A DNA stretch of 55,635 bases from Gammaproteobacteria bacterium (GTDB lineage: Bacteria; Pseudomonadota; Gammaproteobacteria; Steroidobacterales; Steroidobacteraceae). How positions within the stretch are numbered: the stretch's first letter is position 1; each line of letters starts with the position of its first letter. Below, piece by piece: positions 26,799 through 35,278 of the stretch. The DNA lies in contig VBMV01000066.1 in assembly GCA_005878835.1 (NCBI GenBank), forward strand, positions 1-55,635. The letters run 5' to 3'. The notes under the pieces are model-generated. The model saw nothing but the letters and a program-made list of their open reading frames with translations, ran no database searches and was not told the origin of the DNA. A program made the position numbers and the translations under genes.

Positions 26799-26875
26799 GC
26801 GCCCGTAGCTCAGTTGGATAGAGTGGCAGCCTCCGAAGCTGCAGGTCGCTGGTTCGAATCCAGTCGGGCGCGCCA
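26799..26875 (+). tRNA. tRNA-Arg (anticodon CCG)
   Basis: A complete cloverleaf: acceptor stem GCGCCCG (26799-26805) with CGGGCGC (26865-26871), anticodon stem GCAGC/GCTGC around the loop CTCCGAA with anticodon CCG at 26833-26835, and the T-arm GGTTCGAATCC. The 3' CCA is encoded (26873-26875). It reads CGG codons. The restriction-modification genes start just downstream. Confidence 0.97.
26860..26869 (+). repeat. Left copy of a 10-bp direct repeat (tRNA 3' end), possible attachment site
   Basis: CCAGTCGGGC lies in the T-arm/acceptor part of tRNA-Arg and recurs exactly at 28357-28366, on the other side of the restriction-modification pair. Confidence 0.4.
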
Positions 26876-26940: not shown

Positions 26941-26999
26941 GCTAACGCGGCACTTATATCGATTGCCTGCCGCGCAGCTTTTTGCCACAGTCGCCGCCC

Positions 27000-27668
27000 A
27001 TGTTTGAGAGCACGCCTATCGCTACCGATCTCCTCGAAGCAGTCGGTAAGCGAGCCTTCGGAACGATCCTGGCAGACCCACCTTGGCGCTTCGTGAACCG
27101 CACCGGGAAGATGGCACCCGAGCATCGGCGACTGTCCCGTTACGGTACCCTGACCACCGCCGCGATCATGGCTCTGCCGGTCGCAAAGCTTGCCGCCAGC
27201 GCCTCGCACCTGTACCTGTGGGTGCCGAATGCCCTGCTGCCGGACGGCCTGCGCGTCATGGAAGCGTGGGGCTTTCAGTACAAGTCCAATATCGTCTGGC
27301 ACAAGTTGCGCAAGGACGGCGGCAGTGACGGGCGCGGCGTCGGGTTCTACTTCCGCAACGTCACTGAACTGGTGCTGTTCGGCGTGCGCGGCAAGAACGC
27401 TCGCACATTGGCGCCGGGGCGCCGGCAGGTGAACTACATCGGCACTCGCAAGCGTGAGCACTCGCGCAAACCGGACGAGCTCTACCGCATCATCGAAACT
27501 TGTAGCTTTGCGCCGCGCCTCGAACTGTTTGCACGCGGCGCCCGGCGCGGGTGGCTTGTGTGGGGCAATCAGGCCGACGACGCATACGAGCCGACCTGGG
27601 CCACGTACAGCCACAACTCCGCTGCCGAGCGGCGACAGCTTGACCAGCTCGCGTCGGACTCCGACTAG
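27000..27668 (+). CDS. MT-A70 family adenine DNA methyltransferase
   Basis: 222 residues. The catalytic motif DPPW appears as LADPPWRF (~24-31), as in MT-A70 enzymes, most of which methylate adenine N6. The SAM-binding region near the C-terminus reads SFAPRLELFARGARRGWLVWGN. A central segment (ASHLYLWVPNALLPDGL) is typical of the family. It converges on the endonuclease gene and would protect host DNA from it. No good ribosome-binding site precedes the ATG at 27000; a TTG at 26982 is in frame but less likely. The gene is clearly less GC-rich than the flanking chromosome. Confidence 0.85.
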   Translation: MFESTPIATDLLEAVGKRAFGTILADPPWRFVNRTGKMAPEHRRLSRYGTLTTAAIMALPVAKLAASASHLYLWVPNALLPDGLRVMEAWGFQYKSNIVWHKLRKDGGSDGRGVGFYFRNVTELVLFGVRGKNARTLAPGRRQVNYIGTRKREHSRKPDELYRIIETCSFAPRLELFARGARRGWLVWGNQADDAYEPTWATYSHNSAAERRQLDQLASDSD

Positions 27669-30122: not shown

Positions 30123-30719
30123 ATGAGCCGGTTTGACGAGGCGCGGTTTCTGATCAGCGCGGCCGCACCGGCACAGTTTCCACCGGATGCCGGCGCCGAG
30201 ATCGCCTTCGCGGGGCGCTCCAATGCGGGCAAGTCGAGCGCCATCAATGCCATCGCTCAGCGCCGCGCGCTGGCGCGCACCAGCAAGGCGCCGGGCCGCA
30301 CGCGCCTGCTGAATTTTTTCGAGCTGGCGCCGCTCAAGCGTCTGGTCGACTTGCCGGGCTACGGCTACGCGAACGTCCCGCAAGTCGAGCGGCGCGCGTG
30401 GCCGCCGCTCATCGATGCCCTGCGCGCGCGCGCATCGCTTCGCGGGCTGTTCGTGATCGTCGACTCGCGGCGCGGCCTCACCCCGGCAGACCTCGGTCTG
30501 CTCGCCTGGGCCTTGCCGGGGCACCGCGTGCACGTGCTGCTCTCCAAGGCCGACAAGCTCAATCACGGCGAGGCGGCGGCCGTGCTGCGCGCCGCGGCGG
30601 CCACCCTGGGCGGCCGGGCGACGGCGCAATTGTTCTCGGCGCTCGAGGGGACCGGCGTGACACAGGCCCAGGACACGCTTGCGGCGTGGCTGGCGTCTCC
30701 CATCGGCAAGGGGCAATAA
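30123..30719 (+). CDS. engB: Ribosome biogenesis GTPase EngB (YihA/YsxC)
   Basis: 198 residues. G1 is GRSNAGKSS (~35), G3 is DLPGYG (~77) and G4 is LSKADK (~140), defining a circularly ordinary TrmE-Era class GTPase required for 50S assembly. The ATG at 30123 begins MSRFDEARFL. It is divergent from cytochrome c4 and converges on the small RNA candidate and polA side, as in other gammaproteobacteria. Confidence 0.94.
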   Translation: MSRFDEARFLISAAAPAQFPPDAGAEIAFAGRSNAGKSSAINAIAQRRALARTSKAPGRTRLLNFFELAPLKRLVDLPGYGYANVPQVERRAWPPLIDALRARASLRGLFVIVDSRRGLTPADLGLLAWALPGHRVHVLLSKADKLNHGEAAAVLRAAAATLGGRATAQLFSALEGTGVTQAQDTLAAWLASPIGKGQ

Positions 30720-30737
30720 CAAGGGGCAATGGGCGAT

Positions 30738-30771
30738 AAAAAAGCCCCGGCGGTTGTGAAACCACCGGGGC
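30738..30771 (-). terminator. Strong minus-strand rho-independent terminator
   Basis: On the minus strand GCCCCGGTGGTT pairs over 12 positions (one wobble) with AACCGCCGGGGC around a TCAC loop, followed by TTTTTT (30743-30738). It ends the small RNA candidate and faces the engB end. Confidence 0.88.
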
Positions 30772-30890
30772 CAGACTAACCCGGTACAGGTCTCGTGAAC
30801 CGGGCTCTTACCCGCTCAGGGAGGGAAGCGGGGAGTGCGATGCACTCGTTAGGTTGGACGCGCGGCCTGGGTGCGAGTTCCGCGCCGGAT
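30738..30890 (-). ncRNA. Candidate small RNA at the engB-polA locus (Spot 42/ErsA position)
   Basis: On the minus strand a series of hairpins leads to the terminator: GAGTGC-ATC-GCACTC (30847-30833), CCCGC-loop-GCGGG (30832-30811) with a C-rich loop UUCCCUCCCUGA, and CCCGGT-loop-ACCGGG (30804-30780). The C-rich loop is complementary to Shine-Dalgarno sequences, as in many base-pairing regulatory RNAs. An A+T-rich block (30893-30940) upstream could hold the promoter, with TATGAT or GATATT as -10 candidates; the 5' end is approximate. In enteric bacteria Spot 42 and in Pseudomonas ErsA lie between polA and engB in this orientation. Identity by sequence was not established. Confidence 0.6.
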
Positions 30891-30962
30891 CGGAAAAAAT
30901 ATCTTTTCAAATCATAAGTTTGATGAAGAACTTGTATCATCCTCGCCACAGATGCGGCTCAG

Positions 30963-31532
30963 CTAGAACAGGCTCAGAACCACCGAGAGCGAGAAAATCC
31001 GCGCGTCATCGGTGTTGGGGATGCGGAAGCGCTCGTACTCGAGGCGCCCGCCGATGTTGCCGACGTGCGCCTGGGCCCCTGCGCCCCAGGCGAATTCCGT
31101 GCCCTGGTCCGAGAACGCGAAGAAACTGCTCGGTGGCAGGGTTGCGGCGCCCGAGCTTCCGTTCAGCTTCCAGTGCGACAGGCCCGCCTTGGCAAACACG
31201 TCCAGGAAGGGCACCGGAAGGGGCAGGAAGCCGACCGCGTAGCCCGCGTAGGCCTTCGCGTCCGAGTGCGCGCTGGCACCGCTGATGAACGTGTTGGTCT
31301 GGTTGCCCAGGTTCAGGTAGTCCGCCTCCACGGCAAACAGCTTGATCGGCCGAAAGCCAGCCAGCACTTTCCACGAGGTCTCGTAGATTTCGGCAAAGGG
31401 CACCCCGGTGTGAGTAATGCCTTGGACTTTGTCCTTCGAGATACCGGCGCCCACGTACAGCAGTCCGCTGTCGTCGGCCCGGGTGGCGCCGGCTGCGAGC
31501 GCCAGAAGCGTTGTGAGCAGTATCCTTCGCAT
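30963..31532 (-). CDS. Outer-membrane beta-barrel protein, copy 1
   Basis: 189 residues. A signal peptide (LLTTLLALAAGATRA) precedes a small barrel: YVGAGISKDK, SWKVLAGFRPIKLFAVEADYLNLG, YAGYAVGFLPLPVPFLDVFAKAGL and a C-terminal FSLSVVLSLF ending in the Phe typical of outer-membrane proteins. It resembles 8-strand barrels of the OmpA-N/OmpW kind. It is a clear paralogue of the gene at 31857. GGAGG lies 7 bases before the ATG, a plausible pairing target for the nearby small RNA. Confidence 0.8.
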   Translation of the reverse strand: MRRILLTTLLALAAGATRADDSGLLYVGAGISKDKVQGITHTGVPFAEIYETSWKVLAGFRPIKLFAVEADYLNLGNQTNTFISGASAHSDAKAYAGYAVGFLPLPVPFLDVFAKAGLSHWKLNGSSGAATLPPSSFFAFSDQGTEFAWGAGAQAHVGNIGGRLEYERFRIPNTDDARIFSLSVVLSLF

Positions 31533-31669
31533 GGCTGCACCTCCAACATCATCCATAACAGGTGCCGGCGGGTGTTGCCTGCTGTTGCCGCGCGGCGACA
31601 GCGCACTTGCGTGGCCGGAGTTGAAATGACTCACCGGGGAGCGGAAAGTTCGGCGCCGCCACGCTGCGG

Positions 31670-31850
31670 CTAGCCGGGCGGAGCCCATACGCGCAGTGCG
31701 CAATGCCGCGCGGCGTGCACAAAGTCGTTGTCGGTACTGAGCAATACCAGCCGATGGCGCACGCCACGCTGCGCGAGCAGCGCGTCGATGGTTCCAAGCT
31801 GTATGCCCGCGCGTCGGCAGCGATTGCTGATACCTGCTGCGTCGATCGAA
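31670..31850 (-). pseudogene. Remnant of a VapC-type PIN-domain toxin (C-terminal part)
   Basis: In one minus-strand frame, with no start codon, the residues run ISNRCRRAGIQLGTIDALLA then, after a short stretch, LVLLSTDNDFVHAARHCALR and VWAPPG before TAG at 31672-31670. This is the C-terminal half of a PIN domain; the Asp of IDAL and the Asp pair of STDNDF are typical active-site positions. The N-terminal half and any VapB antitoxin are missing, the fragment starting near the end of the downstream-neighbour barrel gene. Seen directly as a frame; the family call is from motif recognition. Confidence 0.65.
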
Positions 31851-31856
31851 CGGCGC

Positions 31857-32414
31857 TTACAGACGCAGGATCACGTCGAGCGAGATGATGCGCGCGCCGT
31901 TGGTGTTGGCAACGCTGAAACTCTCGTACTCGAGCCGGGCACCGACGTTACCGATGTGTGCCCCCGCCCCCACGCCCCAGGCAAACTCAGTGCCGCGGTC
32001 GGAGAAGGAGATCAGGTTGGCCGGGCCCGCGATCCCGACGGTGCTGCCGTCGGACTGCCAGCGCGCCAGGCCGGCCTTGCCGAACACGTCGAGGAAGGGC
32101 ACCGGAATCGGCAGGAAGCCGACCGCGTAGCCCGCGAACGCCTTGTAGTGGGCGTGGGTTTCGGCGTCGACGAAGTTATTGGTCTGACCGCCCAGATCGA
32201 TGTAGTTGGCCTCCACGGCCAGCAGGCTGATGGGGCGCAAGCCGACGAGCACTTTCCACGACGTCCGGTCGATGTCGGACAGGGTGAAGCCGTCGGCGGT
32301 AGTGATGTCGCTCAGTTTGTCCCGGACCACGCCGGCGCCGACATAGACGAGGTTGCCGGCGTGCGCGCCGCACACCCCGCAGGCCAGCAGCATCGCAGAC
32401 AGTGGTCTACGCAT
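31857..32414 (-). CDS. Outer-membrane beta-barrel protein, copy 2
   Basis: 185 residues with a signal peptide (~1-19, ending CGAHAG) and the same blocks as copy 1: YVGAGVVRDK, SWKVLVGLRPISLLAVEANYIDLG and AVGFLPIPVPFLDVFGKAGL; over these blocks the two proteins are nearly identical. The last strand is IISLDVILRL, lacking the terminal Phe of copy 1. CAGGGAGACC lies upstream of the ATG. A tandem duplication within the polA-engB interval is the simplest explanation. Confidence 0.8.
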   Translation of the reverse strand: MRRPLSAMLLACGVCGAHAGNLVYVGAGVVRDKLSDITTADGFTLSDIDRTSWKVLVGLRPISLLAVEANYIDLGGQTNNFVDAETHAHYKAFAGYAVGFLPIPVPFLDVFGKAGLARWQSDGSTVGIAGPANLISFSDRGTEFAWGVGAGAHIGNVGARLEYESFSVANTNGARIISLDVILRL

Positions 32415-32476
32415 AGACGGTCTCCCTGAAATTTGATTTTACGGTAACGCAGCCTGCCGCGCGCTTTGACCGTGCC

Positions 32477-35278
32477 TCAGTGCGCCTCGTCCCAGTTGGC
32501 GCCCACACCCACGTCCACGCGCAGGGGAACGCTCAAGGAGGCCGCATTCACCATGCGCTCGCGCACCGCCGCGCTCGCCTGCTGCACGGCGTCCTCGCGC
32601 ACCTCGAGCACCAGCTCGTCGTGCACCTGCATGATGAGCCGCGCCGGGGCGTCCTCCGCGGTGCACCAGGCATCGATGGTGATCATGGCGCGCTTGATGA
32701 TGTCGGCCGCCGTGCCCTGCATCGGCGCGTTGATGGCGCTGCGCTCGGCGTACTGGCGCAGCTGCGTGTTGCCCGAGCGGATGTCGGGCAGGTACAGCCG
32801 CCGGCCGAACACCGTCTCGACGTAACCGATCTGCCGCGCCTGCGCGCGCGTCTCGTCCATGAAGCGCTTCACGCCGGGATAGCGCTGGAAGTAGCGCTCC
32901 ACGTACTGCTGCGCGGCGCCGCGCTCGATCCCTAAGTTGCGTGCCAGGCCGAACGCGGACATGCCATAGATGAGACCGAAGTTGATGACCTTGGCGGTGC
33001 GGCGCTGGTCGGGCGTGACCGCATCGAGGCCGACACCGAACACCTCGGCGGCCGTGGCCTGGTGCACGTCGCGATCCGCGGCGAAAGCCGCGCGCAGACT
33101 CTCATCTCCCGACAGATGCGCCATGATGCGCAGCTCGATCTGCGAGTAGTCGGCGGCGAGCAGCAGGTAGCCCGGCGGGGCGATGAACGCCTGGCGGATG
33201 CGGCGTCCCTCTGGACGGCGCACCGGGATGTTCTGCAGGTTGGGATCGACCGAGGACAGCCGGCCGGTGGCGGCGACCGCCTGGGCGTAGTTGGTGTGAA
33301 TGCGCCCGGTGCGCTCATTCACCTGCTCCGGGAGCGTATCGGTGTAAGTGGACTTGAGCTTGGCGAGCGCGCGGTACTCGAGCACGATCCGCGGCAGCGT
33401 GTAACTGCCGGCCAGCTCTTCCAGCACGTCCTCGGCGGTCGAGGGCTGCCCGGTCGGGGTCTTGCGCCGCACCGGGAGCTGCAGCCGCTCGAACAGGATC
33501 TGCTGCAGCTGCTTCGGGGACTCGATGTTGAATTCATGGCCGGCCTCGCGGTGCGCCTGCAGCAGCAGCTCCTGCAACTGGCGCGCGAACTCGCGGCTCT
33601 GGGTGCGCAGCCGCTCGCGATCCACCAGCACGCCACGATGTTCCATGGCGAAGAGCACCGGCACCAGCGGCTGCTCGCATTCCAGGTACAGGCGCGCCAG
33701 CGCCGGCACCGCCTCGAGCTGTGGCCACAGCGCCCCGTGCAGCCGCAGCGTCACGTCGGCATCCTCGGCCGCATAGTCCCCGGCGCGCTCCAGCGGCACC
33801 TGGTCGAAACTGAGCTGCTTCGCGCCTTTGCCGGCGACGTCCTCGTAGGTGATGGTGCGCAGTCCGAGATACCGCTGGGCGTCCGCGTCCATGTCGTGAT
33901 TGGTGGCGACGCTGTTCCAGACGTAGGACTCGAGCATGCTGTCGAAACGCATGCCGGCGAGCCTGATGCCGGCGTTCGCCAGCACGTGGGCGTCGTACTT
34001 GAGGTTGTGCCCGACCTTGCCGCGCGCGGGATCCTCGAGAATGGGCTTCAAGGCCGCGAGCACGCGCTCGCGATCGAGCTGCTCGGGCGCGCCCGGATAC
34101 ACGTGGCGCAGGGGGACGTAGGCGGCCACGCCCGGCTCGATGCACAAGGAAACGCCGACGATCTCCGCGCGCATGTAGTCGAGGCTGGTCGTCTCGGTGT
34201 CGAAGGCGAACAGCTCGGCCGTGCGCACGGCCGCGAGCCAGCGCTCGAGATCCTCCCAGCGGGTCACGGTCTCGTAGCGGCGGGCGATGTCGGCAGGCGC
34301 AGGACTCGCGCCGGATGGCGCCGCGGCCGGCGGCGCTGCGGCTGCTGTGCCGGCGCCCGGCACTGCGGGCAGCGGCTGCGGACTGTGCGCCACGGGGGTT
34401 GCGGCGCCGCCCGCCATCGCATCGGCCCCTTCCAGCTGCCGCAGCAGCGCGCGCAGCTCGTAGCGCGTGTACAGCTCGCGCAGGCGCGCACTGTCCGGCG
34501 GGCCCGGCACCAGCTCCTCCACCGACAGCGGCAGCGTGAGGTCGGTCCTGATGGTCGCGAGCCGGCGCGACAGCTCGAGAGTCGTCAGACCGGTGCGCAG
34601 GTTCTCGCCCACCTTGCCGGGAACTTCCGCGACGTGCCCGATCAGCTCATCGAGGCCGCCGTACTGCTGCAGGAGCCTCGCGCCGGTTTTCGGCCCCACC
34701 TTGTCGATGCCCGGGATGTTGTCGGAGCTGTCGCCGACCAGTGCCAGGTAATCGACGATCTGCTCGGGGTAGACGTCGAACTTCGCCTTGACGGCGTCGC
34801 GGTCGAGCACCGTGTTGTTCATGGTGTTGACGAGCGTGATCGAGCCGTCGACCAGCTGTGCCATGTCCTTGTCGCCGGTGGAAATGAGCACCGTCTGGCC
34901 GGCTTGCGCGGCGCGCCGGGCGAGGGTACCGATCACATCGTCCGCCTCCACACCCGGCACGCGCAGCAGCGGCAGCCCCTGTGCCTCGATGATCTCGAGC
35001 AGCGGCCCGATCTGGGCGCGCAGGTCATCGGGCATCGAGGGCCGGTGTGCCTTGTACTCGGTGAACAGCTCGTCGCGGAAGGTCTTGCCCGGCGCATCGA
35101 ACACCACGGCAATGCGGCGCGGCTGATAGTCCTTGAGAAACTTCAGCAGCATGTTCAGCACCCCGAGCACCGCTCCGGTCGGCTCGCCGCGCGAGTTGGA
35201 CAGCGGCGGCAGGGCGTGAAACGCCCGGTAGACATAAGAGGAGCCGTCGACGAGAACCAGGTCGGGGGAGCGCGTCAT
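32477..35278 (-). CDS. polA: DNA polymerase I
   Basis: 933 residues with all three activities. The 5'-3' exonuclease domain (1-~290) has VLVDGSSYVYRAFHAL and GDSSDNIPGI. A proofreading domain (~345-530) keeps the DTET motif (FAFDTETTSLDY). The polymerase domain has motif A DYSQIELRIMAHL, motif B RRTAKVINFGLIYGMSAFG and motif C QVHDELVLEV. An Ala/Pro-rich linker (~295-340) separates the first two. The start is the ATG at 35278; the frame is open far upstream but only antisense to the DUF1800 gene. Confidence 0.97.
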   Translation of the reverse strand: MTRSPDLVLVDGSSYVYRAFHALPPLSNSRGEPTGAVLGVLNMLLKFLKDYQPRRIAVVFDAPGKTFRDELFTEYKAHRPSMPDDLRAQIGPLLEIIEAQGLPLLRVPGVEADDVIGTLARRAAQAGQTVLISTGDKDMAQLVDGSITLVNTMNNTVLDRDAVKAKFDVYPEQIVDYLALVGDSSDNIPGIDKVGPKTGARLLQQYGGLDELIGHVAEVPGKVGENLRTGLTTLELSRRLATIRTDLTLPLSVEELVPGPPDSARLRELYTRYELRALLRQLEGADAMAGGAATPVAHSPQPLPAVPGAGTAAAAPPAAAPSGASPAPADIARRYETVTRWEDLERWLAAVRTAELFAFDTETTSLDYMRAEIVGVSLCIEPGVAAYVPLRHVYPGAPEQLDRERVLAALKPILEDPARGKVGHNLKYDAHVLANAGIRLAGMRFDSMLESYVWNSVATNHDMDADAQRYLGLRTITYEDVAGKGAKQLSFDQVPLERAGDYAAEDADVTLRLHGALWPQLEAVPALARLYLECEQPLVPVLFAMEHRGVLVDRERLRTQSREFARQLQELLLQAHREAGHEFNIESPKQLQQILFERLQLPVRRKTPTGQPSTAEDVLEELAGSYTLPRIVLEYRALAKLKSTYTDTLPEQVNERTGRIHTNYAQAVAATGRLSSVDPNLQNIPVRRPEGRRIRQAFIAPPGYLLLAADYSQIELRIMAHLSGDESLRAAFAADRDVHQATAAEVFGVGLDAVTPDQRRTAKVINFGLIYGMSAFGLARNLGIERGAAQQYVERYFQRYPGVKRFMDETRAQARQIGYVETVFGRRLYLPDIRSGNTQLRQYAERSAINAPMQGTAADIIKRAMITIDAWCTAEDAPARLIMQVHDELVLEVREDAVQQASAAVRERMVNAASLSVPLRVDVGVGANWDEAH

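Follow-up and report, generated by a model that had tools for sequence, protein, structure and literature searches.

A putative sigma-E-type small RNA of the anti-hemB family at the engB locus of a gammaproteobacterium

What kind of element occupies the intergenic stretch between engB and the polA side in a Steroidobacteraceae bacterium, and to which known RNAs, if any, is it related? The locus lies within a stretch of 55,635 nucleotides (GenBank assembly GCA_005878835.1, contig VBMV01000066.1), which is called the window here. Region 30738-30890 consists of a promoter (30881-30854) joined to an RNA (about 30850-30737), and the minus-strand element beside engB is, judging from its sequence, very probably a real small regulatory RNA (sRNA) gene. 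Our main reading, to which we give roughly three chances in four, is that of a trans-acting, RpoE-driven sRNA homologous to anti-hemB, encoded at a locus marked by engB, whose C-rich loop would silence ribosome-binding sites; we infer its transcription, sigma-E dependence, Hfq binding and targets.

In the window, polA, two barrel genes and the sRNA share one strand and engB converges on them. The engB gene itself (30123-30719, plus strand; a YihA/YsxC GTPase, PF01926) stands beside the RNA in many relatives as well, and past it come a gene whose cytochrome c product has two haem domains and then a DsbA-like gene. On the other side lie OMP1 (30963-31532, minus strand; PF13505) and its paralogue OMP2 (31857-32414, minus strand; PF13505, PF01389), beta-barrel outer membrane protein genes that are 55-58% identical by tblastn, followed by polA for DNA polymerase I (32477-35278, minus strand; PF00476). 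The two outer-membrane genes that a sequence-only reading had placed between the RNA and polA are thus confirmed. Such barrel genes are lineage-specific, and direct adjacency of the sRNA to polA is common. The polA end is included in 36 genus loci: 22 of them show no barrel gene, 12 have one and two are counted with two, one of the latter (L008) being a split match; the gap to polA in the 22 barrel-less loci is below 600 bp in eight and 1.4-1.7 kb in 14. In other genera, 14 of 26 loci with a polA end are without a barrel gene, with gaps of 39-176 bp. As a separate observation, four of five opened gaps of 1.4-1.7 kb (L040, L043, L045 and L052) hold an opposite-strand open reading frame of 484-499 codons that appears aldehyde dehydrogenase-like by eye.

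The minus strand of 30733-30895 folds at -72.7 kcal/mol, compared with a shuffle mean of -56.2 (sd 4.2; z -3.9), and none of 200 shuffles is equally stable; the three hairpins and the 12-bp terminator with six Us described earlier from the letters are present. Read along the minus strand, hairpin P1 (30833-30847; GAGUGC-AUC-GCACUC) is followed by P2 (30811-30832; CCCGCUU-CCCUCCCU-GAGCGGG), whose C-rich loop (30818-30825), also described earlier, is unpaired in the fold and forms the predicted seed. Within this loop lies CCUCC, which is also the core of the anti-Shine-Dalgarno sequence of the ribosome. P3 (30778-30806) carries the genus-typical loop ACGAGACCU, and the intrinsic terminator (30738-30772) has a stem of 12-13 pairs with one U.G, a UCAC loop and six Us. 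It is the sole terminator in 30500-31700, and because shuffles of this 1.2 kb yield a mean of 0.8 terminator-like patterns, the pattern alone is not rare. The gene as a whole is about 114 nt long (30850-30737, minus strand), with a start predicted from the promoter and from full-length matches of R1, a model built from 52 sequences of the genus; R1 gives the window RNA 113.8 bits over 30850-30737, the window being one of its 52 training sequences.

The sequence-only reading had recognised no named RNA in this stretch, a point that the Rfam 15 search reverses. RF02837, anti-hemB (also Burkholderia RNA 7), matches 30834-30736 with 50.3 bits against a gathering cut-off of 49.5, clearing it by 0.8 bit only, and the window RNA thus belongs by score to this named family as an ordinary member. 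With loose limits, sX13 (RF02232) matches across all 115 positions with 30.8 bits, below its cut-off of 50, and NsiR1 matches weakly at the same place (30.0 bits, cut-off 39). ErsA (RF01719, Pseudomon-1/ErsA, cut-off 50) gives no match at E <= 1 in 30600-31000, and Spot 42 (RF00021) is absent among the Rfam matches in the window. The position beside hemB is what the name anti-hemB describes and is no part of the Rfam model; in the window's genome, hemB lies on another contig (C135), and the polA side takes its place beside the sRNA. According to extracts of PMC5688073, anti-hemB corresponds to ncS04 of Burkholderia cenocepacia J2315, an RNA of 105 nt that was detected there by Northern blot, dRNA-seq and 3' RACE, is stated from an earlier paper to bind Hfq, and was unchanged in expression under the seven conditions tested.

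The RNA is conserved throughout the genus. Searched with RF02837 at E <= 1, 57 of 58 genus genomes have a match and 30 of the 58 exceed the cut-off; among 14 unrelated control genomes, nine match at E <= 1 and none exceeds it. Our genus alignment comprises the 52 genomes with a match above 40 bits (table count), the window's locus included, and holds 50 distinct sequences; G006 was excluded because its match lies at the end of a contig; G011, G016, G026, G029 and G047 lacked a strong match. In the 50 distinct rows, the cells of the 34 pairs are able to pair in 98.9% of cases, so that the stems, whose lack of conservation in relatives had been named as a refuting outcome, are kept. Both-side changes occur at eight pairs, all of them in P1 (three of six pairs) and the terminator (five of 12), compared with 3.8 in shuffles, none of 500 reaching eight. 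P2, stem and loop CCCUCCCU alike, is identical in all 52 sequences, and no both-side changes were found in helices 2 and 3 among them, helix 3 varying on one side only; because P2 never varies and P3 is one-sided, these two helices give little evidence at genus level. Class-wide, both-side changes reach 32 of 34 pairs, P2 and P3 included, in an alignment fitted to the model, and 21 of 25 predicted pairs in an unfitted MAFFT alignment of 30 sequences. The P3 loop (30788-30796, minus strand) with its GAGACCU motif is kept in the genus and in several sister genera, with small departures within the genus (e.g., L004 and L015), and is C-rich in other relatives. A pseudoknot between this loop (AGAC) and the linker (GUCU) was considered and set aside: both segments are near-invariant in the genus, and no covariation is visible by eye in L127, L128, L135 and L136.

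Upstream of P1, the window carries GGAACTC-N16-TCCAA, a promoter box of the sigma-E (RpoE/AlgU) type. Its -35 element GGAACTC (30875-30881, minus strand) and its -10 element TCCAA (30854-30858, minus strand), which starts 16 nt past GAACTC, are pattern matches conserved in the genus, with GGAACT at the same place in 52 of 52 loci. The box is predicted to set the RNA start near 30850. Since positions from 30851 upwards read as promoter and not as RNA, the transcript would measure about 114 nt instead of the roughly 150 nt first proposed, unless a sigma-70-like site further upstream is used. This site, ATGATA-N18-TATGAT (30940-30911, minus strand), agrees at nine of 12 positions (0.2 in shuffles) and recurs in nine of the 52 genus loci, window included, nearly always at the same position, so that a second, longer transcript is possible.

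Upstream of the RNA, the pattern GAACYY-N15-17-TC occurs at 51 of the 52 genus loci, with 0.8 expected from shuffles. Other genera of the family, represented by 30 hand-picked loci, have it at 25 (0.6 expected). The class loci have it at 22 of the 29 that R1 found (0.5) and at 15 of the 27 that RF02837 found (0.65; a set overlapping the R1 genomes), and the phylum loci at five of 11, L287 among them at an unusual distance. A predicted sigma-E type promoter common to most relatives read is new. Sigma-E control is not universal, because the strict box is missing at seven of the 29 R1 class loci, 12 of the 27 RF02837 class loci and six of the 11 phylum loci, and such relatives may have come under another sigma factor. 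Loci without the box at the tested spacing are seen, for example, at L096, L106, L113, L114, L173, L179, L282, L284, L288 and L290.

The window's genome encodes RpoE (294 bits; the other 16 of 17 matches stay below the cut-off), and TGAACTT-N16-TCTAC stands directly upstream of its rpoE gene, a site picked by eye that fails the strict pattern. Moreover, a strict box, one of five matches in the genome, lies directly before rpoH (L247, near position 1501; G000:C107:5245-5272, minus strand), the RpoH assignment resting on TIGR02392 (396 bits vs 323). Among the classic targets of sigma-E are rpoH and rpoE, the latter being autoregulated. Genome-wide, the strict pattern is not enriched (five matches vs seven for a reversed-pattern control), and a sigma-E regulon drawn from the pattern alone was discarded for showing no excess over that control. 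Because the strict pattern is unenriched and the rpoE site fails it, the case for sigma-E rests on conservation and on rpoE and rpoH. Membrane stress is the likely signal that switches the sRNA on.

Beyond the genus, R1 finds the RNA in 187 of 217 genomes of the family, covering 24 of 25 genera, and, at E <= 0.01, in 94 of the 369 genomes of the class, where it matches other families with E values between 1e-11 and 1e-7. At phylum level, 29 of 398 genomes match, 24 of them inside the class and five outside it (E 2e-6 to 0.003). RF02837 itself matches 142 of the 369 class genomes at E <= 1e-4, with 21 over the cut-off, and one of 14 controls (Caulobacter), below it. Genus g16 has the sRNA in none of its four listed genomes (G072, G091, G107 and G121), three of which are 96-100% complete, and has probably lost it or diverged strongly. 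Promoter position and hairpin order are common to most class loci compared, and the best reading is that the sRNA is inherited vertically, mostly under sigma-E control and linked to engB. Tandem arrays of two to four copies were also observed (L149, G386:C33:13149-13903; L150, G493:C8:6558-7493; L105/L151; L106; L153; G478:C3:217579-218301); in L149 and L150 there are four, all placed between engB and polA, and every copy has a GGAAC box of its own.

Neighbouring genes tie these loci together. Of the 94 class genomes matched, the best 29 loci that lie outside the family were compared; 25 of these have polA and/or engB within 1.5 kb, and L103, L107, L113 and L114 have neither within that distance. 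The class loci found by RF02837 have engB, polA or hemB beside the RNA in 22 of 27 cases, including L167 with the order engB-sRNA-hemB. In the phylum search (11 loci), hemB is present in eight and engB in six, and five loci (L281, L283, L287, L289 and L290) show the order hemB-sRNA-engB, with engB convergent and a score over the RF02837 cut-off; the sRNA lies between hemB and engB at six loci in all. Neighbours were identified by tblastn, with one query per gene taken from the window's genome and loci of mostly 3 kb, so that a missing neighbour counts for little. Since engB is present in the polA and hemB arrangements alike, it is the neighbour common to both, and this shared address, which ties anti-hemB to the RNAs of the polA locus, is new. 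The data point to engB as the more constant neighbour.

How far does this kinship extend to the RNAs already named? Anti-hemB resembles the window RNA in its P2 loop and in the order of P3, linker and terminator, and engB converges on both kinds of loci, but the Rfam model starts at P2 and is without the P1 that the window RNA has. The best anti-hemB fits, L287 (85.6 bits) and L290 (83.5 bits), have hemB and not polA on the other side; L290 is without a sigma-E box, and L287 matches only at 80 nt from the loop, compared with 59-62 nt elsewhere. Spot 42 (spf) has the same gene order, polA-spf-yihA, and the same orientation. The sequence-only reading had likened the locus to those of Spot 42 and ErsA, and place and orientation do agree with ErsA, but kinship with Spot 42 was rejected: there is no sequence or structure match, and R1 gives E. 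coli spf 9.8 bits, whereas unrelated sequence within these 8 kb reaches 13.8 bits. We know of no sigma-E control of Spot 42. Its repression by cAMP-CRP is given by a title in the reference list of PMC3771888. ErsA, by partial accounts in PMC8575079 and PMC5819304, is encoded in the polA-engB intergenic region, is controlled by sigma-22, the Pseudomonas counterpart of sigma-E, and regulates in an Hfq-dependent manner; it shares with the window RNA this location and the type of promoter (in the window, by sequence only), but it is 132 nt long and, in the same accounts, has a U-rich unstructured domain between two stem-loops. sX13 likewise resembles the window RNA in its 115-position model, three hairpins and C-rich loops for G-rich motifs. 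It differs in having three C-rich loops instead of one and in acting without Hfq (extracts of PMC3771888). The sX13 gene lies beside polA; the window RNA is at the same locus, with two barrel genes in between.

We lean, with some reserve, towards the view that ErsA, sX13, anti-hemB/ncS04 and the window RNA form one ancient family of Gammaproteobacteria, including the former Betaproteobacteria, with an engB address and an ancestral RpoE switch, acting as a general envelope-stress silencer of ribosome-binding sites, arranged in tandem in some lineages and placed under another promoter in others, perhaps in Burkholderia. The alternative of independent origins beside engB or polA, with C-rich loops reached by convergence and a covariance match that reflects three GC-rich hairpins and a terminator, is unlikely. 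It draws on the C-rich loops known in other RNAs and on ar14, which scores weakly on two loci, as well as on the window's lack of an ErsA match and its sub-cut-off sX13 score given above. Furthermore, a scan of 20 class loci at E <= 0.01 gave ErsA at one and sX13 at three, all below the cut-off; the sX13 matches beyond G386 are weak and lie at L095 and L110. Against it, a model from one genus reaches other families at the E values given above, 25 of the 29 best loci lie at the same place, and hairpin order and promoter position are common to most of them. Additionally, one tandem array (G386, four copies from engB to polA) scores 48.3 bits with sX13, 41.8 with anti-hemB and 37.1 with ErsA, none over the cut-off. 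Rfam lists no clan for RF02837, RF02232 or RF01719. In the literature searched (5.39 million papers, with most subscription papers outside it), no paper was found that names any two of sX13, ErsA, anti-hemB and Pseudomon-1, and two were found that mention anti-hemB together with sRNA. The sRNA family is widespread in bacteria and has until now been filed under several names; joining three separately filed RNAs would make one testable family and predict that many bacteria, cultured or not, have an envelope-stress RNA.

Under our main reading, envelope stress would lead RpoE to transcribe about 114 nt from GGAACTC-N16-TCCAA, up to the intrinsic terminator. Hfq probably binds the U-tail, as suggested by the tail itself and by the ncS04 report, and an Hfq gene is present in the window's genome. 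The invariant P2 loop CCCUCCCU would then mimic the anti-Shine-Dalgarno sequence, pair with G-rich ribosome-binding sites and block translation in the manner of sX13. The likeliest targets would be envelope proteins, with the adjoining OMP2 as a candidate: UCAGGGAG at its ribosome-binding site (32422-32429, minus strand) is a perfect complement of CUCCCUGA in P2, with a predicted duplex of -15.9 kcal/mol that 2% of 500 shuffles equal. At the OMP1 start, pairing is no better than in shuffles (67% equally good). The earlier suggestion of a loop able to pair with Shine-Dalgarno sequences therefore holds for the loop, which is anti-Shine-Dalgarno-like and strongly conserved, and fails for the GGAGG of the adjacent barrel gene, which is unremarkable. 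At the barrel-gene starts of relatives, with start codons chosen by script, pairing energies range widely, from -6 to -21 kcal/mol, and conserved cis-regulation of the adjoining barrel genes was rejected on this ground; because the pairing is not conserved in relatives, OMP2 is a candidate target and no more. Loop-2 complementarity at the starts of TonB receptors gave p = 0.42 (5 of 39 receptors kept, 30 loci, vs 78 other genes), in a comparison that relied on a home-made gene caller and in which shadow frames were chosen. The P3 and terminator loops are C-rich too in many of the more distant relatives, and the window's genus keeps C-rich loop 2 only.

Could the RNA instead be a sponge, or bind protein, its hairpins titrating a protein or another RNA with no mRNA silenced? 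Up to four tandem copies in some genomes would suit titration, and the lineage's P3 loop GAGACCU is conserved without a known partner, but we consider this quite improbable, as repression by sX13 in GFP-fusion tests requires both its C-rich loops and the G-rich motifs of the mRNAs on which they act (extracts of PMC3771888). Lastly, since the element follows a same-strand gene, converges with engB and ends in a strong terminator, it might be the 3' terminator or UTR of the polA-barrel operon, or a bidirectional engB terminator, and no regulatory RNA, but this is very improbable given its own promoter box, a P2 whose every letter is kept, which is much more than a terminator would require, and the homologue ncS04 seen by three methods in B. 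cenocepacia, as extracts of PMC5688073 report.

Elsewhere in the window, on the far side of engB, an MT-A70 family adenine methyltransferase gene (26982-27668, plus strand; PF05063) adjoins a tRNA-Arg gene (26799-26875).
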